Origin: a virus
DNA length: 64,000 bases
Strand: one strand, 5' to 3'
IMG/VR virus record: IMGVR_UViG_3300036985_005327
Location: 24,650 to 88,649 of that record
Below, in pieces: positions 177 through 57,605 of this stretch. The translations under genes were made by a program, and so were the position numbers. The stretch's first letter is position 1. Each line of letters starts with the position of its first letter. The notes below the pieces were generated by a model, which was not told where the DNA came from, did no database searches, and saw only the letters and a program-made list of their open reading frames with translations.

Positions 177-407
177 CTATTCTGATGCCGCAGCTAATTC
201 TGCGAGCACTTCGGACTTATCGATCTGAACCATTTGTAGTCTCTCGGGGGGAACACCTTCTAGGATGTCACCTAAGAGATGAAACAGCTCAGTGGAGCAG
301 AGGAGAAGACTCTTCTCGGAGTTGTACGCTGTCATATATAGCGCGCGAATAGCCTGAACTGTTTTTTCAGGGTCAACTCGTTTTCTCCGTGTCGAATACC
401 GGGTCAT
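177..407 (-). CDS. Hypothetical protein, 76 aa
   Basis: A small gene of unknown function with a basic N-terminus (RRKR) and a helical remainder. Its ATG overlaps the TGA of the upstream gene (ATGA), and GGAG sits eight bases before the start, so it is translationally coupled within the minus-strand operon. No motif is recognised. Confidence 0.7.
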   Translation of the reverse strand: MTRYSTRRKRVDPEKTVQAIRALYMTAYNSEKSLLLCSTELFHLLGDILEGVPPERLQMVQIDKSEVLAELAAASE

Positions 408-568
408 TCAAAAGGCTCCGTGCCGTGCACAGGACACTTCAAAATCCCGCCAGTAGTCGCGGGATTCACGACTACTCGTTGACACCAAGGACAACGACCT
501 TTGTCGTGTTCGTCCTCAGTTCCAACTTTTGTGTGATCCTTCTTCTCCACTACTCCATATTTTTCCAT
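404..568 (-). CDS. Small zinc-ribbon protein, 54 aa
   Basis: The start at 568 is chosen over a longer in-frame start because it follows the previous stop by one base and has AAGG six bases upstream. The protein carries CPWC followed by CPVH about 19 residues later, a plausible C2/CH zinc site. The rest is charged. It probably binds nucleic acid or protein, but nothing in the sequence fixes a function. Confidence 0.7.
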   Translation of the reverse strand: MEKYGVVEKKDHTKVGTEDEHDKGRCPWCQRVVVNPATTGGILKCPVHGTEPFE

Positions 569-569
569 G

Positions 570-986
570 TTACGCCTTCGGGGCAGCAGCTTTCGCGGCT
601 TCCATCTCAGCCTTGGTGCGGCGCTTCTTCTTGGGAGTCTCACCTTCGGGCTTCTCCCCTTCTACCTTCTCGTGCTTGATGCGGAACATGATGTCCTCGA
701 TCAGGTAGTTGACGCGTGACTTGCAGCCTTTGTTGCGCTTACCGTCCAGAGCGCAGAGGTTGTCGAGCGACTCCGTGACGAGTTCGCCGTCTTCGTTCTT
801 GCGCAGAATCATGACGTCTGGGAGATTGGGAACGTCGGCTGTATCGAGGATCATTTTCTTGAGTTCCTCGAGAGCGTTCTTGCGAGCCAGCTCGTCATCG
901 ACCAGGCGGCTAACTTCCTCGAGAGGAAGCTCACGCTCGCTCATACGACCACACCGCTCACACTTCGTTGGCACTTTGATATTCAC
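570..986 (-). CDS. Zinc-motif protein with Lys/Ala-rich tail, 138 aa
   Basis: The start is a GTG at 984-986. A perfect GGAGG formed by the last Trp-Arg codons of the upstream amidase gene lies four bases before it; a TTG start at 1016 would ignore this site. The N-terminus has CERCGRM, and two more cysteines (NLCALD, KGCKSR) could complete a metal site. The last 35 residues (PKKKRRTKAEMEAAKAAAPKA-like) resemble a DNA-binding tail. Unknown function. Confidence 0.7.
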   Translation of the reverse strand: MNIKVPTKCERCGRMSERELPLEEVSRLVDDELARKNALEELKKMILDTADVPNLPDVMILRKNEDGELVTESLDNLCALDGKRNKGCKSRVNYLIEDIMFRIKHEKVEGEKPEGETPKKKRRTKAEMEAAKAAAPKA

Positions 987-14100: not shown

Positions 14101-14991
14101 GTAAAAGCCAAAGCAAAGAACAAGCCCCAGATTATGGCCACGTACCATACCGTATCTCGTAACCTAGCGGTGGACGTATCCACGCTGCTATGCCTTTTGG
14201 GAATCAAGTCCCGGATACACCCCTACACCAAAAAAGAGAGTCCGGGGCAAGAGTATTACAACGTTGTGATATCTGTCCCAGACCTACAAAAGGTTGCAGG
14301 ACAACTCCAGTGCGCTACAGAGTCTAAAGCCCGAGTGCTCAAAGAACTGTCTAACATCACTTTTGACCCGAGTGCTCCTGAGAATGCTCGGTGGGACATG
14401 CTCCCAATCTCTGGAGCTACGATCCAGGCGATTCGCAGTGTACAAATTTTATCGACTAGTTCGTGTGAGTATGTCGCACTAACAAAAGCGGTGAAGCTAA
14501 ATAGAATTTCTCGTGGCGTTTTGAACAAAATACGAGAACAACTCGGAGATGATTTAGTTAAGGACGTCTGTGGTGCTGCGTGGTTTAAGAACGTTACTAA
14601 CGAAAACATCATCTGGGACTTTATCGAAACAGTAGTTCCGCTTGATGAACGACAGACTGCTTGGGACATCACAGTTCCTGATGGCTGTACGTTCATGACC
14701 AGCGAGCAAATCGTTGTTTACGACACCATGATGATTCACACCCCGGTGTCAAACGCGGCGATTGAAGACGTCAAGAAAATGACGCTCTCGAACACGCTGT
14801 ACGGAGACAAATCACACAGCGACCTCTTTGTTGTGCCGCGTCACGAGTCAACAATGGGTATCACGCATGCTAGTGGTTTAGACGACCACAACAAGCCAAT
14901 TCACTTTGCGACACAAGCCGATGCTATGAAGGCGTACCACGACAGTAAAATTACTCTAGGTACCCGCGTAACGATTGGCGAGCAAAAGTGA
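8101..14991 (+). CDS. RNA polymerase beta / beta' N-terminal fusion with two inteins
   Basis: This 2296-codon gene encodes DNA-dependent RNA polymerase subunits. Residues 1-776 and 1140 to about 1350 are beta-like: GDKL/SGNFGNKGVVS equals the bacterial GDKLAGRHGNKGV, and KGGDASSKALGMMEFGAL equals the beta C-terminal GG..F..ME.WAL region. From about 1390 it is beta'-like: GLFDPGI, PVVPPLVRPV, NPLYRDLL, RPVMMNRAPTLHRF and NGDYDGD (1721-1727), the Mg2+ triad of NADFDGD. The beta' Cys4 zinc module after GLF is missing. Inteins occupy 777-1139 and 1728-2208, so the spliced protein is about 1452 aa. There is no stop between the beta and beta' parts. The remaining beta' lies in the gene at 16439. 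A weak AAAGGA precedes the ATG. Distant homology to phage RNAPs is clear; the fused/split arrangement is unusual. Confidence 0.93.
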   Translation: MTQDIQPFLVSADIKREHIRNKVVEGIQESFPIKSRSKTIHVSDITVQNKDYSPSDQKTAIMEGNSLFEHVKGTITVRDNATGEISDKIKNFTLAKVPWFTPRHTLIVGGNEYSVASMVRPKTGVYARKRANGILEANFNMQGASNFNVTMDPEQGEMQIEYGASKIPLYPILTRAGLTHEDISTAWGKDLADKNRQMAPKNASGVVDRLYNKVVPIYGRDVLKLTTPEDKVKEIFNRYSKATMDPEVNKVTLGMPYSSVTPHVILDASKKVLKIFKNSDEVDDRDNLDFKALYGIDDFFKERIKLDARDIARKASIKIEAKKDLRHAVQSAPFTPGLLKFINTSRLVSVPTQTNPMELIDSSMRITSLGEGGISSERAIPMEARMIHPTQIGAIDPMRTPESFQAGVDVRAAMMLHKDKQGNIYVPMYDVKNGKKLVFIRAGQIQNNVVAFPQQKLEGQVDALVNGVTRKVSASTVQYQIPHSSVMYSPATNLIPFMESNQGNRIIMGSKYQTQALSLVDRDVPNVQSISQTGKPMVTVMAETINPKSPVDGLITEIDKDYIRIKPDTGKGVVSVHYETNFPLAAKSFLHHTLNVRVGDHVKQGQMLANSNYTKDGQLALGKNLTVAYMPYRGANSNDAVVVSEGAAKKLTSEKMYKIIVARDVDMTFNKDKHQVYYGHEYKRDQYGLVDADGVVKKGAKLNAGDPVIFGLRQSTMTPDDILLGRLHKSLIKPFRNASEIWDHNHTGEVVDVVKTPKRIAITIKVKEPVVVGDKLCYAVNTDILTTTGWKPVEKVTVSDVCYTLNTEGVIELHNPTNVHAYPHGEEMYELKSQQVDLRVTANHSLLVELRGTKTFNLIEARDVIGKRVRHRKDGVWSCGTTPKFFELPILEILETGKGCKKSQKAANRHAPIQMLDWLEFLGIYLANGSTTIFNRKDRNGAVEHIVQLSSDYGQIHSISGDQYAWIQEVIERCGFYYQAIPKGFLIKSKQLACYLSQFGKAPDKYVPQEIFTYGIDASDKLLVGLLGCDGSRTPSGSLVYSSVSRTLIDDVQRLCLHRGWSANFKISPRTNYPETWNTCYRAQVVQSKNRPQVNHGHSKTQSGQSERLFTSEEPVYGLTIPNHTLYVRRNGKPVWSGNSGNFGNKGVVSEIIPDEHMIKDESGKPIDIIVTSAGVVGRINPAQILEAAVGKVAAKTGKPVLVENFSSRDNVQYAKDLLKKHGVKDKETVFDPITGKTIPSVFVGNGYYFKAFKSTDVNYSARNIGSYDANLQPTKGGDASSKALGMMEFGALVGHNARNVLLEASTLKSQKNDEFWRALQMGYPTPPPKTSFAADKFMNMLVGAGVKVTRTGSKIALGPLTDHDTMKMSAGEILEPKLVRAKDLKPEKGGLFDPGITGGLKGDRWAHIDLAEPIVNPIFEEPVRRFLGMTGTKLTETIHNQGAGYLKTELNKIDLDKKQAELEDKSKKAKGSDLDSIVKQLKYIKSLKSLNLIPGDAYIISKIPVVPPLVRPVIPGKGGQELIYGDINPLYRDLLFVNNQLKEVKKAGTMPFEEAKLRPMLHQAVGAVYGVNDPVTTKSLARGHKGFLTYIAGAGSPKYGYFQSKLMKKTQDVAGRGTIVPDSNLGIDEVGLPEDMIWTMYEKFLIRRLVQQGYAPLEAQEMIKARHPLAKEAFMREIKERPVMMNRAPTLHRFNITGAFPVPVAGQTIRVNPFVEIAQNGDYDGDCADCTLEYAICIAGKYVLQSLHIGDFPHNKETKKVTGNKELYEVPANTFVFGYSEKNQRVQLCEVTHFSVHHDLEMVNATLTSGRSVKVSRDHSMFGMNPETGELSRFKAEEGIGWGTPKPRQLFVEQKRDYLTDHCDAPDLENVPMDFNLGWVLGAWAGDGWVGHSNDSPNQVCLAKVDPLVRHTFTQRMFRYKEDASLREYSATHDYGGGEYTSTKIHINNTKLAKWFSGVTEGIRGSHNKKLPSWFMHGKEDFLLGLLSGLLDTDGTVCSVKAKAKNKPQIMATYHTVSRNLAVDVSTLLCLLGIKSRIHPYTKKESPGQEYYNVVISVPDLQKVAGQLQCATESKARVLKELSNITFDPSAPENARWDMLPISGATIQAIRSVQILSTSSCEYVALTKAVKLNRISRGVLNKIREQLGDDLVKDVCGAAWFKNVTNENIIWDFIETVVPLDERQTAWDITVPDGCTFMTSEQIVVYDTMMIHTPVSNAAIEDVKKMTLSNTLYGDKSHSDLFVVPRHESTMGITHASGLDDHNKPIHFATQADAMKAYHDSKITLGTRVTIGEQK
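10429..11517 (+). other. Intein 1 in RNAP beta (363 aa, LAGLIDADG type)
   Basis: A protein-splicing element inserted between GDKL and SGNFGNKG of beta. It starts with Cys (residue 777) and ends ...KPVWSGN with Ser as the +1 residue. Block B is TANHSLLV (TxxH), and block F is VYGLTIPNHTLYV. Two dodecapeptides are recognisable: LGIYLANGS, with Asn in the usual acidic position, and LLVGLLGCDGS. The homing nuclease may therefore be impaired while splicing stays intact. The element is visibly more AT-rich than the flanking polymerase sequence. Precise excision restores an uninterrupted beta motif, which fixes the borders. Confidence 0.9.
13282..14724 (+). other. Intein 2 in RNAP beta' active site (481 aa, LAGLIDADG type)
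   Basis: The element is inserted directly after the catalytic NGDYDGD motif. Removing it gives DGD-TMMIHTPVS, aligning with bacterial DGD-QMAVHVPLS. It begins with Cys (residue 1728), has SRDHSMF as block B, and complete dodecapeptides LGWVLGAWAGDG and LLSGLLDTDG, so the homing endonuclease looks intact. The C-terminus is unusual: VVYD followed by Thr, instead of the classical VVHN followed by Ser/Thr/Cys. The block F histidine position also reads Cys (PDGCTF). The polymerase cannot work unless this intein splices, because it splits the Mg2+-binding loop. Confidence 0.88.
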
Positions 14992-16439
14992 ACAAGCAAG
15001 ACGTTCTAGACTACTACACTACCCCGCATATTCAGGATGCTTTACTCCGTAATTTTTATGGAGACGAAGCCCTGACGCTCGTGCAGCATGAAGAAGGGAA
15101 ACCTTTTTATCGTAGGAATCTAGACGGGAATCCAATCAAGCTGAACAACCAGGGGCAGCTTAAACGGCTACTGGACCAGCGTACAGTTGAATTTCATCCG
15201 TCGATTGGGAAGACCACGAACGTCGTGTGGGTGGATATCGATCCAGGGAAAGATGTCACAACCCATAATCTTAAACCAATCGTAAAGCAAATCGACACAA
15301 TCCTAAAGGGGATGCCTGAAGTGACACGAACGTCGCTGGCGTTCTCGGGGGGTCGGGGGTTCTATGTTCGAGGTCATCTTAAAGAAGAGATGGCTACGGA
15401 CGAGGTACAGAAACTCCTGGACGAGAAGCTGAAGAAGCTGACCGTGAGTGACCCCAAGTTGGTTATGGCTCCTCCGCAGTCTCTTCAGGTACGTCTCGAC
15501 ACCTCGACGCTTCATAACAAAGGTTCTATTCGTGGTTTGTACTCCTTGAACTCTGAGACAGGATTGGCGTCAGTGCCTCTTAAAAGGCACGAGCTCAATG
15601 ACTTCAATCCAGACACAGACGCTAATCCAAAAAGATTAATGGAAGCGGAGTTCGCTCCAGGGATACCACGTGACAAAAGAACTCATGACATTCCCACCCT
15701 TGCAGGAGCTGCTTGGACCATGTCAGTGCAGCAGCATGACGCGGTTAAAGCGGGTCCTCACTGGGATCTTCGGCTCATTGACCCGGACACGAGTCACGCG
15801 CACTCATGGGCTATCCCAAAAGCAAAGTTTCCTGAAGCAGGAGGAAAACCCCTGCTTGCTATACAGACCCCTACGCACACATCTGATTATGCTCTCCAAT
15901 TTGGAGAGAGCGGGCCTCAGCAAATACATTCGGGATACGGACGTGGCTCTGTTGAGATCAAACACAAAGAACCTATAACGGTTTTGTCGTCTAGGCTAGA
16001 TAGTCTAAAATTCGAACGAACCGTAGGTGATGCTAAAAAAGAGCGGTATGCTCTAGTTCGAACAAACAAGGACAAGTGGCTCATGCGAAATATCACTGAG
16101 AAAGTTGCTTCGTCGTTTTACTGGCAGGGCTACTTTGATACGCTCTACAAGTTAGGTGCTGAAGAGGTGAGCGGTATCGACCAAGGTCAGTCCGGTAACG
16201 CGTCTACTACAGAGTCGGGTCGCCCTATTCCTAGCAACGACGAGAACACAGGTGCGGGACAGTTAGCCGCAGTGTTTAACGAGATGAACGTAGACGGCGA
16301 GGGTGGAGAAGTTCAAGCAGACGGAACGGGCAACAAGGTAGACAAACACCTCGAGCGTCCCTCTGAGTGGGGCAATCCGTTCTCCGTGGGAACCATGAGC
16401 GGGTCTTCACCGATCATTCCGGGTGGCGGCGGTAACTGA
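14988..16439 (+). CDS. AEP primase/polymerase-like domain fused to LigD 3'-phosphoesterase domain
   Basis: The N-terminal ~200 residues carry the archaeo-eukaryotic primase pattern: VDIDP (Asp83, Asp85), SGGRGFYVRGH (120-130), then VRLDTS (Asp171) and SIRGLYSLNSETGL (180-193). This resembles PrimS and the LigD polymerase domain. Residues ~244-345 match the LigD phosphoesterase: VQQHDA (His250), PHWDLRL (His258, Asp260, Arg262), SWAIPK, TPTHTSDY (His297) and GYGRGSVEI, all known active-site positions. A ~95-residue low-complexity tail follows. There is no ligase domain. The start is a GTG overlapping the RNAP stop (GTGA). Expected activities are primer or gap-filling synthesis and 3'-end healing. 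Domain calls are by motif, not by alignment score. Confidence 0.82.
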   Translation: MNKQDVLDYYTTPHIQDALLRNFYGDEALTLVQHEEGKPFYRRNLDGNPIKLNNQGQLKRLLDQRTVEFHPSIGKTTNVVWVDIDPGKDVTTHNLKPIVKQIDTILKGMPEVTRTSLAFSGGRGFYVRGHLKEEMATDEVQKLLDEKLKKLTVSDPKLVMAPPQSLQVRLDTSTLHNKGSIRGLYSLNSETGLASVPLKRHELNDFNPDTDANPKRLMEAEFAPGIPRDKRTHDIPTLAGAAWTMSVQQHDAVKAGPHWDLRLIDPDTSHAHSWAIPKAKFPEAGGKPLLAIQTPTHTSDYALQFGESGPQQIHSGYGRGSVEIKHKEPITVLSSRLDSLKFERTVGDAKKERYALVRTNKDKWLMRNITEKVASSFYWQGYFDTLYKLGAEEVSGIDQGQSGNASTTESGRPIPSNDENTGAGQLAAVFNEMNVDGEGGEVQADGTGNKVDKHLERPSEWGNPFSVGTMSGSSPIIPGGGGN

Positions 16440-18244
16440 TGACAACCGAGGGAACTCCTTTTGGTCAGCATTTGATTAATGAGCTTATGCCTGAAGGGTA
16501 TAAGTTCAAAGGTCAAATAACAGGTAAAGATTTCACGGGAACAATGACCCGGTTATCAAAAACTGACCCGCACACGTACGCTCAAATTGTGGGTAACGTG
16601 AAACGGTTAGGCGACCACCTTGCTACCACGGAAGGTCTCTCGGTTGGGCTTGATGATATCGCTCCTGACTACGCTGAGCGCGCTCCGTTAATGGCTCAGG
16701 TATCTGCAAAGTTCCATAAGGCAAAAACAGATAACGAGAAGCGCACAGTATTAGAAGACGCGCACCAGGGTTTCAAAGATTTGGCTATGCGTCATCCAGG
16801 CACTATGACGCAGCAGGTTGCCTCAGGTTCTCGCGGTAAACCAAACCAGTATATGAAAATCGTAGCTTCTCCTGTGTACGGAAGAGACGGGCGTGGGAGA
16901 GTAGAACCTTGGTTAATCCGTAAGTCCTATTCAGAGGGGATGTCGCCAGCGGACAACTGGGTTGTGAGTAGCGAAGCCATTCTTGATACTATCAAGTCAA
17001 GCACATCAGTGTCTGAACCCGGTGAGCTCTCTAAGATTCTGGTCAGTAACATGAACAACATTCTAATTACTGAGCAGGACTGTGGGACGCATAACGGTAT
17101 ACTGATGGACCCTCGCGACTCAGACGTTGTTGACCGCTATCTGGCGCGTGACGTGGGTGCCTTTAGGCGTAACACCTTGATTACGCCGAACGTGCAGCCT
17201 TCTTTGTCCAAAGCGTCTTCGGGAAAGATCCTGGTTCGTTCTCCTATGACCTGTGAAGCGAGTGACGGCGTTTGCCAACACTGCCAAGGTCTTAACGAGA
17301 AGGGAAGAATGCACGACATCGGGACAAACGTAGGTGTGCGTTCGGCTCAAGCTATGGCTGAGCCACTGACGCAGCTTGCTCTGTCTGCTAAGCACGGAGC
17401 GAACACGGCATCTTCCGGGAGAATGCAGTTGCAAGGACTCTCTGGTTTTCGACAGGCCATCGAGTCTCCCAACCTTTTTATGCACAAGGCCACGCTGTCT
17501 ACTCTTAACGGCCAAGTGACCAAGGTAGAAAAAGCCCCTCAAGGAGGACACTTTGTTCACGTGGGTGACGTGTCCCACTACGCTACTCCAGGTCTGGGCC
17601 TGAAAGTAAAAGTTGGCGATTCCGTTGAACAAGGGGATGCCCTGAGCGACGGGATTCCCAAACCAAACGAGGTAGTCAAGTACAAGGGCCTGGGGGCTGG
17701 TCGAGTTTACATGGTAAATACCCTGCGTGGAATTTACAAAGACCAGGGGATCAATATTGACCAGCGCCACTTTGAGCTATTAGCTCTGGGTGAGTTGAAC
17801 CATGTCCGAATTTTGGACGATCCTGGTAAGAATTTTCTCAAAGGAGACGTTGTTCGCTACAACAACCTGAAGTCTGCGTTGTCTCAAGGGATCAAACAGA
17901 TGAGTCTCTCTGATGCTCTGGGGGAGACGTTAGGTAAAGAGTACTTTCATTTTTCTGTGGGTATGCGCGTAACGTCTTCAATGGTAGATTTTCTTAAAGC
18001 CCACGGAGTTAAGGAAGTTTTTATAGCTCCCAGAGCTCCCCAAGTTGAATTCGTAATGAAGCCAGCTACACGTGCTCCGTTGTACAACCCCGATTGGATG
18101 GCTCGGCTAGCACACAGAAACTTAAAAGTTACACTGCAGCAAGCAGCCCACTTTGGGGAAATATCCGACGTACACGGTTCTTCGCCTATTCCGGCCTATG
18201 TTTTAGGTACTGAATTTGGAAAAGGCGAAAAGGGAAAATACTAA
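16439..18244 (+). CDS. RNA polymerase beta' C-terminal part
   Basis: This supplies the beta' region downstream of the catalytic loop. It has GSRGKPNQYMKIV (bridge-helix approach, bacterial GARG..Q...), SYSEGMSP, and the second beta' zinc site Cys215, Cys272, Cys279, Cys282, with exactly the bacterial C-x6-C-x2-C spacing. VGVRSAQAMAEPLTQLALSAKHGANT equals bacterial [25 protein letters not shown] (trigger-loop region). At 601 aa it is much shorter than the matching bacterial segment, in keeping with phage RNAPs lacking lineage inserts. The ATG overlaps the previous TGA (TGATG). It must assemble with the spliced beta-beta' fusion product; no alpha or omega subunit is visible. Confidence 0.92.
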   Translation: MTTEGTPFGQHLINELMPEGYKFKGQITGKDFTGTMTRLSKTDPHTYAQIVGNVKRLGDHLATTEGLSVGLDDIAPDYAERAPLMAQVSAKFHKAKTDNEKRTVLEDAHQGFKDLAMRHPGTMTQQVASGSRGKPNQYMKIVASPVYGRDGRGRVEPWLIRKSYSEGMSPADNWVVSSEAILDTIKSSTSVSEPGELSKILVSNMNNILITEQDCGTHNGILMDPRDSDVVDRYLARDVGAFRRNTLITPNVQPSLSKASSGKILVRSPMTCEASDGVCQHCQGLNEKGRMHDIGTNVGVRSAQAMAEPLTQLALSAKHGANTASSGRMQLQGLSGFRQAIESPNLFMHKATLSTLNGQVTKVEKAPQGGHFVHVGDVSHYATPGLGLKVKVGDSVEQGDALSDGIPKPNEVVKYKGLGAGRVYMVNTLRGIYKDQGINIDQRHFELLALGELNHVRILDDPGKNFLKGDVVRYNNLKSALSQGIKQMSLSDALGETLGKEYFHFSVGMRVTSSMVDFLKAHGVKEVFIAPRAPQVEFVMKPATRAPLYNPDWMARLAHRNLKVTLQQAAHFGEISDVHGSSPIPAYVLGTEFGKGEKGKY

Positions 18245-25938: not shown

Positions 25939-28900
25939 ATGCAAAAGATCATTCATCTTGACGAGTACTTTGCTACGGGTGAAGCCACAGTACAGCCGGT
26001 GCTATTGTGGGCAAACAACCGAGCTTGCTACGAGAACATAACGAAGCACGCCAGTGTAGGTAACGAGTACTTCAAGACGATTCAGCCGGTTCCGGGTCAC
26101 AGCTTTGTTTATGTTTTGGCTGTGAGCGACTGGGAGCATTACGCTGAGAATCGTAACGGAGACGGATTCCCAAATGCACCATACAAGCCAATGGCGAGTC
26201 CTCCGTGGATCAGCCAGGCTGAGACTCTGTCGAATTGGCATCACACGTTTGAGTCAGGAAACAACTTCAGGCATCACTGCTTTACGGGGGAAACTCCTAT
26301 TTTGATGGGAGATAGAACCCGTAAGCCCATTGAGGACGTCGTAGCTGGTGACACGGTTATGACCCTTGAAGGGGCCAAAAAAGTAGTGGACGTCATGAAG
26401 CGTGAGTACGCTGGAGACGGACTATCAATTCGTTTGCACGGTAATTACACGCGAATTGACTGCACTACAGACCACCCCGTCCTGGTATACCGTCGCGACC
26501 AGGTTCATTGTCTGCATGGGTACCTTCGACTTGGCGGTATCGTCTGTAAGAAAGTATCTTGCCGAGACCTGACTACCGATATCGGTGAACCCAAGTGGAT
26601 TCCTGCGTCTGAAATTATGGTGGGGGATTACGCGGTATTTCCCAAACCAGAATTAGGAACGAAAAAAGTACCGGAGGCGTTTGCTCGTTTGATTGGCTGG
26701 GTAGCGTCTGACGGTTGTCTAGGAAAACACGGAGATATTCAGTTTACGTTTTCTTCGGAAAATACATTCAAGATAGACGCGGTAACTCAGTGTTTAAAAG
26801 ATAACGGACTAGACACAGGAATGTATCCATCAAAACTGTACGAGCGTGTTCTTCTTTCTATAACAAAGAAAGAGGTAGCAGACGAGCTGGCTAAGTATGT
26901 TACAGGCAAGAAGGCAGAGAAGAGACTTACACCTGAAGTATTTAAGCTAGACGCTGAGAGTGTGCTGCATGTCCTAGGGGCATTCTGTGACGGCGACGGT
27001 CACGTAGCGCGTACGAACAGAAATCTGGGGCAGTTGCGTATACGCTCTGCATCAGAAAGTATGTTATACGTTTTGCACGATCTCATTAGAGCCTTAGGTA
27101 TTCCTGCAACGGTACAGTGGGACGGTTTTGCACACGACTTTGAAAGTCCTCTTGAAGGATACGGGACGTACCACAGTGAGGGTTCTGGAGTCGTAGCTGT
27201 GTCGAAGGGCTACGCGGCTGAAGTGTTAGTTAATAGTGATAGGCACAAGAACTTACCTGAGCCAGGACGTAAAAACACAATTCGTATTTCGGGGTCGCAC
27301 TTTTTAGTCCCAGTGACGGACGTGGAAGAAATCACTTTGGATACGGAAGTGTTCAATCTCGAAGTTGAAGACGTGCACCACTACGTCGCCAATGGTATTG
27401 TGGTTCACAATTGTAATAAAGACCCTGAAAAACGCGTAGGCAAAGTGGTCAAGTCGTTTTGGAACGACACCATGCACCGCGTTGAGTTGTTGATTGACCT
27501 CGACAACGAGAAGGCTCCTGACCTTGCCGCCCGTATTGCTGCCGGGGAATTTCCTCCGGTAAGTATGGGTACGAAAGTATCGTGGGACGTTTGTTCTGTG
27601 TGCGGCAACAGAGCCCCTACTCGTGCTCAGTATTGTGACCACCTGCGCTTCCAGATGCGTGGGGTCATAAACGGAGTGAAGGTAGCGGCTCTTAACCCAA
27701 GCCCAAAGTTCTTTGACATCTCTTGGGTTGTGCGCCCAGCCGACCCGACTGCGTATATGATGAAAAAAGTAGCGAATGGCGTTCCATATGAGCTCATTTC
27801 CGGCGTAAAGGCCGGTGAATATTTAGACCTCATGGACGAACGTAAGCTAGCGGCGCACAAAATAGCCGTGATAGATAAGGTCGTCCAAGGAATTTCTTTG
27901 GACGCAAAGACTGAGAATGTAGACCCCACAGAGCTTGGCAACATACAACGTATGCGTAGTCAAGTTCTCGATATGGGTGGAAACGTTCCGGTAATTCCAG
28001 ACGAGACTCTGCATCATCTTTCGAGCTTCCCGTTGGAAAAGACGCTGTCGTCTGCGTTCTCCGGTGGAATGCTCTTGAAGACTCCTGAGTTGACTAAGCT
28101 CGTCTTCTTCAAGTCGTACCCTAAGCATCACCCAGAGGAAAGTTGGATTGATAAGTCCGTAGGGCTACAAGGCCCCATCATGGAGCTCATCTCGGAACAC
28201 CCACAGATTCTCGATTCTTTTGAGAATGCAGACATCTTTAACGTAAACAAAGATTCTGTGGACCCAAAGATTCTTGAGGTCTTATCCCCGTACTTTGAGA
28301 AGACTTCAGGGATGGGTGACTATCTCAAGAGAAACATTGTCCCAGAGAAGTACAGAGACGAAGGAGAGTTCACCACTCCGTTGACGATTACTGACCCAGC
28401 AACGGGCCAGCAGTATCGGACAACACGTGGTGCAGCTATTCGTGCCCATGATGAAGTGGCCAAGAGAAATCTTTACAAGACCGTTGGCGGTGCTGCTCTT
28501 TTGGGCGGTACTTACAAAGTTTTGGGCTCGGGTCTCAGCAGCAAGGGTCTTGGGGCATTAAAGCCTCTTGTTGGAGGTACTTTAGCTGCGGCTGGTCTTT
28601 CTCATCTTCCGTCTATGGGCAACCACTACATGACTGACCAGGGGGTTCCAATCTCCACAGTCACAGAGTTGTCAAAAACCTCGTCATTAGCTCTTCCTCT
28701 GTTTGGTACTTTGGGTCTGATGACGTTGCTCAGCAGCGACTATAAGTCTCGAATGGCTCGTGGTGAACCTGTTGGGCATCCGGGTCTTCCTTTGGGGCGT
28801 CGTCTTTTGGACCAAGCTGGTGAGTTCACAAACGAGCACCCCATTGCAAGTGCTGCAGTTGGTATGGCAGGGCTTCATACTTTAGGTAACAGCTTGGCGG

Positions 28901-29121
28901 GACGCGCGGCCAATAAACAGATTATTGAGCCTGGAGCTAAGTATCTTCGTCAGGGGTCTGAAGCAGCGGGTAACTGGCTCAAGCGTATGGCGGACGGAAC
29001 AACAAAACTTTCGGCTATGCTCGATGACTTGTTACCTCAGCCAACGGACACTGTTATGCTTCCTAGTCTAGACATCGAAAAAATTGCCGAGAGAATCGGT
29101 GAACTCATCGTCGAGGGCTAA
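25939..29121 (+). CDS. Prohead protease-like protein interrupted by an intein
   Basis: Outside the intein the protein resembles assemblin/S78-type head-maturation proteases. It has NRNGDGFPNAPYKPM, WHHTFESGNNFRHH (His112/His113), then after the intein CNKDPEKRVGKVV, MHRVELLIDLD, GEFPPVSMG with candidate nucleophile Ser542, and a CSVCGN...YCDHL metal-like motif followed by FFDISWVVRPADP. The H...SxG arrangement and strand order fit this fold. Residues after ~700 hold Gly/Ala-rich hydrophobic segments and K-x-A sites (LSKTSSL, TTKLSAM, IEKIAERI), so the enzyme may cut itself. Spliced length is about 682 aa. Expected role: cleaving scaffold and capsid proteins during maturation. Confidence 0.78.
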   Translation: MQKIIHLDEYFATGEATVQPVLLWANNRACYENITKHASVGNEYFKTIQPVPGHSFVYVLAVSDWEHYAENRNGDGFPNAPYKPMASPPWISQAETLSNWHHTFESGNNFRHHCFTGETPILMGDRTRKPIEDVVAGDTVMTLEGAKKVVDVMKREYAGDGLSIRLHGNYTRIDCTTDHPVLVYRRDQVHCLHGYLRLGGIVCKKVSCRDLTTDIGEPKWIPASEIMVGDYAVFPKPELGTKKVPEAFARLIGWVASDGCLGKHGDIQFTFSSENTFKIDAVTQCLKDNGLDTGMYPSKLYERVLLSITKKEVADELAKYVTGKKAEKRLTPEVFKLDAESVLHVLGAFCDGDGHVARTNRNLGQLRIRSASESMLYVLHDLIRALGIPATVQWDGFAHDFESPLEGYGTYHSEGSGVVAVSKGYAAEVLVNSDRHKNLPEPGRKNTIRISGSHFLVPVTDVEEITLDTEVFNLEVEDVHHYVANGIVVHNCNKDPEKRVGKVVKSFWNDTMHRVELLIDLDNEKAPDLAARIAAGEFPPVSMGTKVSWDVCSVCGNRAPTRAQYCDHLRFQMRGVINGVKVAALNPSPKFFDISWVVRPADPTAYMMKKVANGVPYELISGVKAGEYLDLMDERKLAAHKIAVIDKVVQGISLDAKTENVDPTELGNIQRMRSQVLDMGGNVPVIPDETLHHLSSFPLEKTLSSAFSGGMLLKTPELTKLVFFKSYPKHHPEESWIDKSVGLQGPIMELISEHPQILDSFENADIFNVNKDSVDPKILEVLSPYFEKTSGMGDYLKRNIVPEKYRDEGEFTTPLTITDPATGQQYRTTRGAAIRAHDEVAKRNLYKTVGGAALLGGTYKVLGSGLSSKGLGALKPLVGGTLAAAGLSHLPSMGNHYMTDQGVPISTVTELSKTSSLALPLFGTLGLMTLLSSDYKSRMARGEPVGHPGLPLGRRLLDQAGEFTNEHPIASAAVGMAGLHTLGNSLAGRAANKQIIEPGAKYLRQGSEAAGNWLKRMADGTTKLSAMLDDLLPQPTDTVMLPSLDIEKIAERIGELIVEG
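26278..27411 (+). other. Intein 3 in prohead protease (378 aa, LAGLIDADG type)
   Basis: A canonical class 1 intein. It begins CFTGETPIL, has GDTVMT, block B IDCTTDHPVLV (TxxH), block F VFNLEVEDVHHYV, and ends IVVHN with Cys as +1 residue. Both endonuclease motifs (LIGWVASDG and VLGAFCDGDG) keep their acidic residues, so homing activity is plausible. It sits directly after the FRHH histidines and before NKDPE, interrupting the protease active-site region. Confidence 0.92.
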
Positions 29122-52820: not shown

Positions 52821-54665
52821 CTATAGGGGAAACAGATTAGGTCCAAAGGCTACGATAGGAGCTGTTGGGCGGTCACATAGAACTAATCCGCTCAGGGTAT
52901 CCGACTTGGGAGCTAGCGTCGGGTCTTCGTCTACACCTGTGATGGCTTCTTCAATTAACGTTCCTTGGTCTCTTAAGCTATCCATAAGTTCTTTTTTCTG
53001 TGCGGAGAGACTGTCTTCCCCGCTACCAAAAAGAAGCTCGAGCAGTGGCTTGGCTGCTTCTACGTTGGCCTTTGCTCCACCAGCCAATAACACGACACCT
53101 GTGACAAACTCGTTGCCGTTAAAGAAGGGTGGTGCATTTGGATAACCTCTGGACATGGACTTGTACAGCTCTTGCATAAAGTAAGAGTTTCCACCCTGGC
53201 CTGAGAATGTCCTAGCGTACAACCCCCCTATCGAGGTGATGTTCAGAAGTTTTAGCAGAGCCATTACCTCGTCTAGAATACGCGTGACAATCCGTTCGTA
53301 CCTTTGGATTTCACTCCGCATAAACTCGATGTATTTGCGGAAGTGCTCCAACGCTGTCGGTATGTAACTCGCGAAGTACTCTATGAGAGCAACTATCTGT
53401 TTGATGAGCCACGCTAACGGAGGAAGAACGTCAGCTATAGAAGGAGTGCGTACCCAGTCGGGAGGCGTTCCTGACGAAGCAGTCTGTATCGGCGTTACGC
53501 GTGCTGCGTTCGAAAGGTACCAGTAACCGAGGTCGTTTCCTTTTGCTTTTGCAAAATCCTCAGTTTGGTTAAACCCACGCAGGAACCACGCAATATAAAA
53601 ATGCCAGACGTCATCACGCGTTGTCTTGAGTTCGGGAGCCACGAACATGGTCTCCCCGGCAATGAACCTTCGCTCCTCTATAACAGTAGCCCCACCGACA
53701 GTCATCCCCTTGGTGATGTCGCGCGTACCAAACATCTGCATCACATTGCTGCTAGGAATCTTTCCCAAGTCATTCTTGAGAGCAATCACAGCCATTCGTG
53801 ACGGAAGCACAATTACGCCCCCTAAGTCTGGGAGCGTATGGATGGGTAGCTTCATGCTGTCCCAAGTTAGCAGAGCCTGGAATGACCCTTCTACACCATG
53901 AGGTCTACTGCCTGGTCCGAGAATGACTTCCGCTTTCAAGTTAGTGGGCTTTGGGAAATCAGGCATGCCGTCAGACTGTGCAAACAAATCCCCAAAGAGC
54001 CCTTTGAACCGCCATAGCGCGTCTAAGAAACCAAAGGGGTCAAAGTCAGAACCCATCACCATGACGCCACCAGCGATGTAGTCGTCGCTACTCATAAACT
54101 GGGGTCGGCAGTGGTCCCTAGAATCATTGAGAGACCCGGCTACGGTACGCAAGAAACCAGCGTTTCCTCCGCGCCCTTCGTTGACCTGAACACGCATAGC
54201 GCGTTCGTCCTCAGTCATGTTTGGGTCGTCAAGAGCACCGCTAGGGTTAAAGAACGAAACGCTCGTGTCGCTGCCCCCGTTTCCGACTACGGGCTTCTTG
54301 AAGTTCCAGCTGAAGTTACCTGTGAGGTCCTTTGACGTACCTCCCGCTGAGTACATCATCCTCTTAGCGAAGGGAACGTACATCGCGTAGAGGCCCGCAT
54401 CTTCCAAGTACTTCTCGAGGAGCTGGCGTATCTGGTCCAAGATAGCGCGAATGAGTGCCGCTAGGGGGTCGGCTAAAGCAGACAAGAAGTTCAGTATCAT
54501 ATCTACTAAGCCTGTAATAAGCTCGATAACCGCCTTTAGCTTCTCCACAAAAGATTGAATCTTTTTGAGGATGGGCTCCAAGTTTGGCATTGGTATTTCG
54601 AGCTTACGCCACGGGGGTGGCTGGGCACCTTGTGCATCATTCGTTATGTCTGTTAGGCTGGGCAT
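52821..54665 (-). CDS. Large probable virion/baseplate protein, 614 aa
   Basis: The N-terminal ~100 residues are amphipathic helices (IQSFVEKLKAVIELITGLVD). The centre is beta-rich with repeated Gly-x-x-V strands, and a second long helical region (~430-500) follows. It heads no recognised family. Its size and organisation suggest a tail or baseplate structural protein, outside the main cassette. Confidence 0.65.
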   Translation of the reverse strand: MPSLTDITNDAQGAQPPPWRKLEIPMPNLEPILKKIQSFVEKLKAVIELITGLVDMILNFLSALADPLAALIRAILDQIRQLLEKYLEDAGLYAMYVPFAKRMMYSAGGTSKDLTGNFSWNFKKPVVGNGGSDTSVSFFNPSGALDDPNMTEDERAMRVQVNEGRGGNAGFLRTVAGSLNDSRDHCRPQFMSSDDYIAGGVMVMGSDFDPFGFLDALWRFKGLFGDLFAQSDGMPDFPKPTNLKAEVILGPGSRPHGVEGSFQALLTWDSMKLPIHTLPDLGGVIVLPSRMAVIALKNDLGKIPSSNVMQMFGTRDITKGMTVGGATVIEERRFIAGETMFVAPELKTTRDDVWHFYIAWFLRGFNQTEDFAKAKGNDLGYWYLSNAARVTPIQTASSGTPPDWVRTPSIADVLPPLAWLIKQIVALIEYFASYIPTALEHFRKYIEFMRSEIQRYERIVTRILDEVMALLKLLNITSIGGLYARTFSGQGGNSYFMQELYKSMSRGYPNAPPFFNGNEFVTGVVLLAGGAKANVEAAKPLLELLFGSGEDSLSAQKKELMDSLRDQGTLIEEAITGVDEDPTLAPKSDTLSGLVLCDRPTAPIVAFGPNLFPL

Positions 54666-55892: not shown

Positions 55893-55966
55893 GGTCCTGG
55901 CTTGGCCGATTGGGAGGCAAAATCCTGCAGGTTACAAATGTCGGTTCGAATCCGGCAGCCAGGATC
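55893..55966 (+). ncRNA. tRNA-like element without an anticodon stem
   Basis: GGTCCTGGCT pairs with AGCCAGGATC, a ten-base acceptor-like helix (tRNAs have seven). A D-arm GCC-loop-GGC has the A...GG...A loop residues, and a perfect T-arm GTCGG-TTCGAAT-CCGGC follows. The middle segment has CT-GCA-G at the right place for a Cys anticodon with U33, but its flanks cannot form a stem and the segment is short. It is either a decayed tRNA-Cys or a tRNA mimic inside a longer RNA. Confidence 0.6.
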
Positions 55967-56217: not shown

Positions 56218-56565
56218 GGGGATGACAGGCTTAGACGGTACAACTGAAGCTATGCTCGCACGCCCCAGATGACGCTTACTGGGTAAAGAAGCGTCAACGT
56301 ACAAATGCCGAACCGCAAGAGTACCTGAAAGCGGCGTGAGCCGTTCTCCGTCACCCAGTCTCTTCCCCCTGTAGGGGCTGACGTGGCGTAATTAACCAGG
56401 GCGCTCTGACCAAAGGACCTCAGTATGGTCAGCTAAGCTACGAGGTTACGACGACCGCCTGCAGCTCGTGCTGGGCACTCGGTCGCAGAATCGACAGCAT
56501 CAAGCGTGTGGACGAGGGTGTAGAAGACGATGTATCGGACCCGGTTTCGATTACCGGCATCTCCA
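56218..56565 (+). ncRNA. ssrA: tmRNA (phage-encoded), tag AEPQEYLKAA
   Basis: Transfer-messenger RNA for ribosome rescue and peptide tagging. The 5' GGGGATG pairs with CATCTCC (56558-56564), including the G3-U70 wobble that AlaRS needs, and the discriminator is A. The T-arm is CCGGT-TTCGATT-ACCGG (56541-56557). The 5' segment AGGCTTAGACGG matches the conserved GGNTTCGACGG region. PK1 is a perfect H-type pseudoknot: CCCAG (56264-56268)/CTGGG (56279-56283) interlocked with GACGCTT (56271-56277)/AAGCGTC (56289-56295). Eleven bases after it a GCC resume codon (56307) opens AEPQEYLKAA, then TGA (56337-56339). CTCG and CACG pair with CGAG and CGTG to form P2. CCA is not encoded (CTA). Confidence 0.93.
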
Positions 56566-56576
56566 CTAAATTAATG

Positions 56577-56592: not shown

Positions 56593-56979
56593 ATGGGATA
56601 CGGAGTGTGTAAAAAGCAACGGGACTATCAACGAGAATGGATTAAAAAAAGACGCGACGCTTGGATGCAAGACCATCCGGTATGCGTGTGGTGCGGCTCA
56701 AACATAAATCTACTAGTACACCATTTAAACCCTGACCTTAAAGTGGACCATAAAGTATGGTCTTGGGCAAAGAAACGCCGGGATGAAGAACTAGCTAAAT
56801 GCATAGTCATATGTACCGCATGTCACAACAGAGAACACCATAAGCCTAAATGCGATTTAGAAATGTCACATGGAACTCTAGCAGGGTATAAGACACACGA
56901 TTGTCGTTGTGTGCTGTGCCGACAAGCAAACAGGGATTACGAAATGATCCGTAGAATGCGAAAAGGAGAAAACGGATGA
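56593..56979 (+). CDS. HNH endonuclease, 128 aa
   Basis: HNH core: CVWC (31-34), LLVHHLNPD (His43-His44), a KRRDEELAKC helix, then VICTACHNREH (Cys74, Cys77, His78, His82). Two CxxC pairs hold the structural zinc. The C-terminus has HGTLAGYKTHDCRCVLC, a small Cys/His module often found near phage HNH proteins. It is free-standing, not inside an intron, and lies next to the tmRNA. It may be a homing endonuclease or a packaging-type nuclease. AGGA precedes the ATG. Confidence 0.85.
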   Translation: MGYGVCKKQRDYQREWIKKRRDAWMQDHPVCVWCGSNINLLVHHLNPDLKVDHKVWSWAKKRRDEELAKCIVICTACHNREHHKPKCDLEMSHGTLAGYKTHDCRCVLCRQANRDYEMIRRMRKGENG

Positions 56980-57254
56980 CCGAAAAGACCCTCAACAACA
57001 CCAATATGACTGACCTCGCCAATAACGTCTCGGACGTTCAACTCCACGGCGACCCCGGTGCCTGGGTGTGCGTGTGCAAGGCTTCGAGCAAAGAGCAAGG
57101 CTGGATGAAGAGCACCAAGGCCATGAACATCCAAGGTCTCGGCGTCCTTGTGCAGGTGAGCACCCAGCAGGGTAATGAAGTCGCCGAGGCGCTGACGTTC
57201 ATTCCCCGCGCGCAAATCTACGTGTTGGATGGGAACGTCACCATTCGTGAGTAG
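56976..57254 (+). CDS. Hypothetical protein, 92 aa
   Basis: ATGA overlap with the HNH gene. A small alpha/beta protein (WVCVCKASSKEQGWMKSTKAM, partial) ending in beta strands. GC-ending codons, unlike the HNH gene before it. Unknown. Confidence 0.65.
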   Translation: MTEKTLNNTNMTDLANNVSDVQLHGDPGAWVCVCKASSKEQGWMKSTKAMNIQGLGVLVQVSTQQGNEVAEALTFIPRAQIYVLDGNVTIRE

Positions 57255-57494: not shown

Positions 57495-57578
57495 GCGCTC
57501 GTGGCGTAATGGGTAGACGCCTCAGGTTTAAGCCCTGAGGTCCGTAAGGACGTGTCAGTTCGAGCCTGACCGAGCGTA
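57495..57578 (+). tRNA. tRNA-Leu(TAA)
   Basis: A class II tRNA of 84 bases. The acceptor is GCGCTCG/CGAGCGT (first pair G-T), the D-stem GCG/CGC with a GGG-containing loop, and the anticodon stem TCAGG/CCTGA with loop TTTAAGC (anticodon TAA). The long variable arm is TCC-GTAA-GGA, and the T-arm GTCAG-TTCGAGC-CTGAC. Discriminator A; CCA not encoded. It would read UUA/UUG, useful for the AT-rich accessory genes downstream. Confidence 0.93.
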
Positions 57579-57605
57579 CTGGCCTCTCGTATGTAGCCTA
57601 GAAGG

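Follow-up and report, generated by a model that had tools for sequence, protein, structure and literature searches.

The virus-derived window analysed here (64,000 nucleotides, bases 24650-88649 of an 88,649-base (88.6-kb) IMG/VR phage record, alias G000 in our genome comparison) encodes a one-piece tmRNA (ssrA) at 56218-56565 on the plus strand, which is not a chance match and which, judged by its fold and its conservation, is probably a functional tmRNA. Its tag, AEPQEYLKAA, has a rare Lys at position -3, and the reading that we hold to be probable is ordinary trans-translation by this phage RNA with host SmpB and host ClpXP. Phage tmRNAs are an established kind of gene: they occur in 402 of about 18,000 phage genomes, with 133 unique tmRNAs (PMC9004378), are encoded by mycobacteriophages and phage G (PMC4131195) and are found together with SmpB in huge phages (PMC7162821). 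The gene described here is a new one of this kind with a rare tag end.

ARAGORN predicts a tmRNA (56218-56566, +) whose tag is AEPQEYLKAA*, and Rfam model RF00023 matches over its full length (model positions 1-374) with a score of 101 bits (gathering score 47; E value 2.7e-38). A sequence-only reading of this DNA had proposed a tmRNA that is encoded by the phage and complete in its landmarks, and had suggested a search with the Rfam covariance models; the score is not a background score, and the G3-U70 pair, PK1, the 11-nt gap and the end at 56565, which is the discriminator base, are all as that reading had them. The 5' strand of the acceptor stem (GGGGAUG, 56218-56224, +) contains G3 of the AlaRS G3-U70 pair and pairs with 56558-56564, and the conserved T-arm, the 3' acceptor strand CAUCUCC and the discriminator A occupy 56541-56565 (+). 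The genome reads CUA after discriminator A 56565 and thus does not encode the CCA tail; the interval given is that of the mature RNA without it. Between the acceptor strands lie a long P2, PK1 (CCCAG/CUGGG and GACGCUU/AAGCGUC; 56264-56295), the tag frame with its stop UGA (56307-56339), H5 and the PK2 region (56327-56388), PK3 (56406-56446) and PK4 (56452-56500), all on the plus strand. The resume codon GCC (56307-56309) stands 11 nt past PK1 and opens the frame GCC GAA CCG CAA GAG TAC CTG AAA GCG GCG TGA, which ends at 56339. A scan for sigma-70 promoters and terminators around the tmRNA gave no more hits than shuffled sequence.

Two further virus contigs, both incomplete like the window record, carry related tmRNAs. 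A degenerate DNA pattern built on the tag found one other virus contig with the identical tag (L016, called G002 in the genome comparison; 95.5 kb), and a T-arm pattern retrieved a second contig (L149, or G003; 64.9 kb) with the tag AEPQEMLKAA; the two tmRNAs score 103.3 and 89.1 bits against RF00023. Long syntenic blocks, in which aligned DNA is approximately 64-76% identical, connect the window record with L016, and the similarity to L149 is weaker; on this sequence comparison, the three belong to one phage lineage, all with a tmRNA. Phage RNA polymerase, helicase and endolysin-type genes are present on the window record, and the carrier is a tailed-phage lineage. The tmRNA is among the best-conserved DNA of the lineage (87% identity between window and L016, whose neighbouring genes reach approximately 64-76%; 81% between window and L149; 89% between L016 and L149), and it keeps its place in a common gene order of a tRNA-like gene, the tmRNA and an ORF beginning MTEKT, followed in two of the three by tRNA-Leu(UAA), which ARAGORN places at 57495-57579 (+) in the window and which is also present in L016. 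Among phage isolates, neither blastn with the tmRNA nor megablast with 25 kb of the genome as query gave a match. A further relative (G001, 143.9 kb) lacks a tmRNA, which says nothing because its contig breaks off at the position corresponding to window 43126, and two contigs that share the T-arm motif (L147 and L148) had no complete tmRNA by ARAGORN or Rfam in the stretch examined. Peptide patterns for the upstream ORF at 52821-54665 gave no viral-contig relatives, yet L016 and L149 both have it.

Selection on the RNA can be read from the three copies, for which we compared 77 named pairs in 12 helices and checked PK4 separately. No named pair is broken and 100% of the 230 cells are paired, with nine two-sided compensatory pairs distributed over the acceptor (one, pair 5-343), PK1 (one, A50-U63 to U50-A63 in L149), the PK2 region (three, pairs 136-167, 137-166 and 151-158 in L149) and PK3 (four). 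Neither the pairing nor the compensatory count was matched in any of 500 shuffles, and structures slid along the alignment were 32-44% paired with no compensatory pairs, a comparison in which the named structure, drawn partly by eye from the same sequences, is favoured on percentage paired; the double changes, by contrast, do not rest solely on how the structure was drawn. The G3-U70 pair is kept in all three copies, the T-stem is fully paired, and at PK4 the sequence is largely replaced in the window while both helices, fully paired in each copy, and the H-type arrangement are retained. Nine compensatory pairs and none of 77 broken thus argue that the tmRNA is under selection. They also bear on the view that the gene is a passenger, a host ssrA fragment acquired at an attachment site and functionless in the phage. 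Phages often integrate at ssrA, and fragments of the gene do occur in viral contigs (PMC9004378), but here a full-length gene stands in three diverged members of the lineage with its compensatory changes, and a search for the tag with the -4 and -3 residues left free matched nothing in a collection of one genome for each of 84,980 species, so that no host ssrA donor was identified. We regard this view as largely refuted already and its probability as very low.

The three copies form a mosaic. From column 79 to column 175 (97 columns covering spacer, tag, H5 and PK2; window 56296-56392) the window does not differ from L016 at all, which is far above the genome background, and L016 is identical to L149 at PK4 (columns 231-286; window 56448-56503). 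Recombination inside the tmRNA gene, possibly recent, would likely explain this pattern, and because of it the shared tag of the window and L016 gives little independent support. L149 is the informative copy for the tag: relative to the window, CAA has become CAG and GCG has become GCU, both at the third position only, and Tyr has become Met with LKAA kept. Two codons changed at the third position only, together with one residue, support the tag reading frame.

The sequence-only reading had also called the -3 residue unusual, and the survey bears this out. We collected viral contigs with a generic tmRNA 3' motif, a set that mixes true phage genes, host ssrA and some miscalls, and obtained at least 48 loci with a standard-form tmRNA. 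Only standard-form calls were counted because some ARAGORN tags, mostly of the permuted form, look like miscalls; the calls counted still include a few doubtful ones. Among the matches listed, 34 of the 48 standard-form tmRNAs have Leu at -3, one has Arg (L079, GNTQPQLRAA, 134 bits) and one has Lys (L104). The L104 tmRNA (345-730, minus strand; tag ANSDLNSEPLRKAA, Rfam 81 bits) lies inside a tRNA array. Its contig has no similarity to the window lineage, which makes it a second, independent Lys at -3. Lys at this position is rare, then, but not unique, and phages with atypical tag ends were known before, given ALV in Nappy and QVA in phage G.

What Lys at -3 does to tagged proteins is where our reading parts from the earlier one, which had suggested that it might change their fate, a step that the evidence here does not support. 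With the charged Ala, the appended peptide would be AAEPQEYLKAA, 11 residues long like the E. coli tag AANDENYALAA, with Tyr7, Ala10 and Ala11 kept, Asn3 replaced by Glu and Ala8-Leu9 by Leu-Lys. Asn3 is reportedly an SspB contact, and Ala8-Leu9 are reportedly part of the ClpA determinants (Flynn et al.). E. coli-type SspB tethering is perhaps absent for AAEPQEYLKAA. By cryo-EM, ClpX mostly reads the final Ala-Ala-COO-, and changing Leu at -3 raises KM only modestly (PMC7652416). Known ClpXP C-motif-1 ends are LAA, NAA, PAA and EAA, and C-motif-2 substrates have Lys at -3 (MuA RRKKAI, YbaQ RAKKVA, PncB HIKKAS and PaaA HARKVA; PMC9775585). Compared with C-motif 1, in which Leu or another uncharged residue usually precedes the C-terminal Ala-Ala carboxylate, LKAA has the Ala-Ala, and its Lys departs from LAA within the known range of ClpXP substrates; a tagged product would most likely still be a host ClpXP substrate, with affinity perhaps modestly altered.

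A phage protease or another adaptor had been suggested as well. Profile searches that detected their positive controls found neither ClpP nor SspB on the three contigs, and a survey of the larger ORFs gave no degradative protease, only a weak head-maturation-protease match; these absences, like that of SmpB below, are weak because the contigs are incomplete. The conserved, rare Lys could nevertheless mean a changed use of the tag: tagged proteins might escape degradation, decay slowly or pass to a different protease or adaptor, and the phage would then rescue ribosomes while avoiding both the loss of partial proteins and the feeding of ClpXP. All three copies keep LKAA although Tyr at -5 became Met in L149, the one unrelated Lys among the matches listed is that of L104, and the Nappy and phage G tags depart from LAA too. 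Against this stand the retained Ala-Ala, the occurrence of E, P, N or K at -3 in known ClpXP substrates (PMC9775585) and the lack of either ClpP or SspB on the contigs, and we judge an altered degron unlikely, with a small chance of being right.

SmpB was likewise not found on the three incomplete contigs by profile searches whose positive controls were detected, so host SmpB would serve. This finding also fits a decoy or inhibitor, a phage RNA that competes with the host tmRNA for SmpB or ribosomes and has a precedent in the tRNA-like-domain-only RNA of phage DS6A (PMC11915505, PMC4131195). A decoy would not need an mRNA-like domain, a tag frame, a stop and four pseudoknots, all maintained here by compensatory change, and we think it very improbable. 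For ordinary trans-translation, we infer that the gene is expressed and that host RNase P, 3'-processing enzymes and CCA addition would mature the transcript, which host AlaRS would charge through G3-U70. Host SmpB and EF-Tu would then deliver it to ribosomes that have stalled on cleaved or nonstop mRNAs, the supply of which should be plentiful in infection; the ribosome would append Ala and AEPQEYLKAA and be released at UGA, and the AAEPQEYLKAA-tagged product would go to host ClpXP for degradation. By analogy with other phage tmRNAs, for which it has already been proposed, recycling of ribosomes in infection is a plausible role.

The tRNA-like gene 5' of the tmRNA (55896-55964, +) is more unusual than the tmRNA itself. 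It matches RF00005 at 39 bits and has relatives in L016 (5594-5661, minus strand, 40 bits) and L149 (1054-1122, plus strand, 26 bits, below the cut-off of 29), where only a few bases separate its end from the tmRNA. Acceptor, D-arm and T-arm are present; the acceptor is paired at 7 of 7 positions in all three copies despite different letters, and the T-stem is fully paired in two of them. An anticodon stem in canonical register is missing from every copy, and CCTGCAGGTT, which is invariant, stands there instead. ARAGORN did not call the gene, and its pattern matched nothing in the one-genome-per-species collection. It may be a relative of tRNA that no longer decodes and acts as a decoy or in processing; alternatively, it may be a tRNA in which one arm is strongly altered. 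A bolder proposal joins it to the tmRNA in a phage-specific rescue unit, in which LKAA would steer products away from, or differently through, host ssrA degradation and the tRNA-like RNA, lacking an anticodon stem, would be a non-decoding partner (processing guide or decoy); we consider this improbable.

Directly 3' of the tmRNA lies a free-standing HNH endonuclease gene (56593-56979, +; PHROG 4234, E value 2.7e-28). At this site L016 and L149 have no HNH gene and instead have the first approximately 66 codons of the downstream ORF, and the HNH gene is possibly a homing element able to spread the tmRNA segment. The following 92-aa ORF (56976-57254, +) matches the C-terminal part of a 158-160-aa ORF in L016 (4734-5012, minus strand) and L149 (1625-2107, plus strand) and is unusually conserved, with 91% and 87% amino acid identity, respectively, compared with mostly 30-60% for other syntenic genes. 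Family searches assigned it no family, and the idea that it is a small SmpB substitute is unsupported: its AlphaFold model is beta-rich but of low confidence (pLDDT 59.7) and has no PDB fold match. Elsewhere in the window, a 1060-aa ORF (25939-29121, +) has an intein splicing domain and a LAGLIDADG signal and weakly matches a head maturation protease family too. LigD-type primase-polymerase/3'-phosphoesterase signals (14988-16439 and 16439-18244, +) adjoin a fragment of a multisubunit RNA polymerase large subunit, for which the nearest isolates are Vibrio phages D181, D148 and D69 and Salmonella phage Arash at approximately 30-33% identity.

Set beside known systems, the RNA resembles the standard one-piece bacterial tmRNA (RF00023) in G3-U70, T-arm, long P2, PK1-PK4, an Ala resume codon and a 10-codon tag ending in Ala-Ala before UGA; it differs in that the tag ends in LKAA, where ALAA or VAA is common, and in that CCA is not encoded. 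The Bxz1/Nappy type, Bacillus phage G and Streptomyces phages also have a complete one-piece tmRNA in a large tailed-phage genome, and tRNA genes lie near the tmRNA in Nappy, phage G and Annadreamy, as they do in the window. Non-standard ends occur in Nappy (Bxz1 group; ...EEAAALV) and phage G (...ELQVA), whereas the Streptomyces phage tags keep ALAA and the window lineage has Lys at -3; it differs from the tmRNAs of isolated phages in lineage, in tag and in the tRNA-like gene without an anticodon stem that precedes the tmRNA. In the marine methylophage Melnitz, ssrA is virus-encoded too, and its proposed role is to keep the hijacked translation machinery running or to recycle host proteins, but it is a permuted two-piece form with a glutamine riboswitch (PMC9004378); the window has a one-piece form, and an all-Rfam scan of the tmRNA region gave no riboswitch match.

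The gene bears on the question of why a phage should keep a tmRNA of its own when its host already has one. A lineage that keeps both the fold and LKAA makes it testable whether the benefit is ribosome rescue alone or an altered fate of proteins, and LKAA itself is a rare natural degron variant for studying recognition by ClpX and its adaptors.
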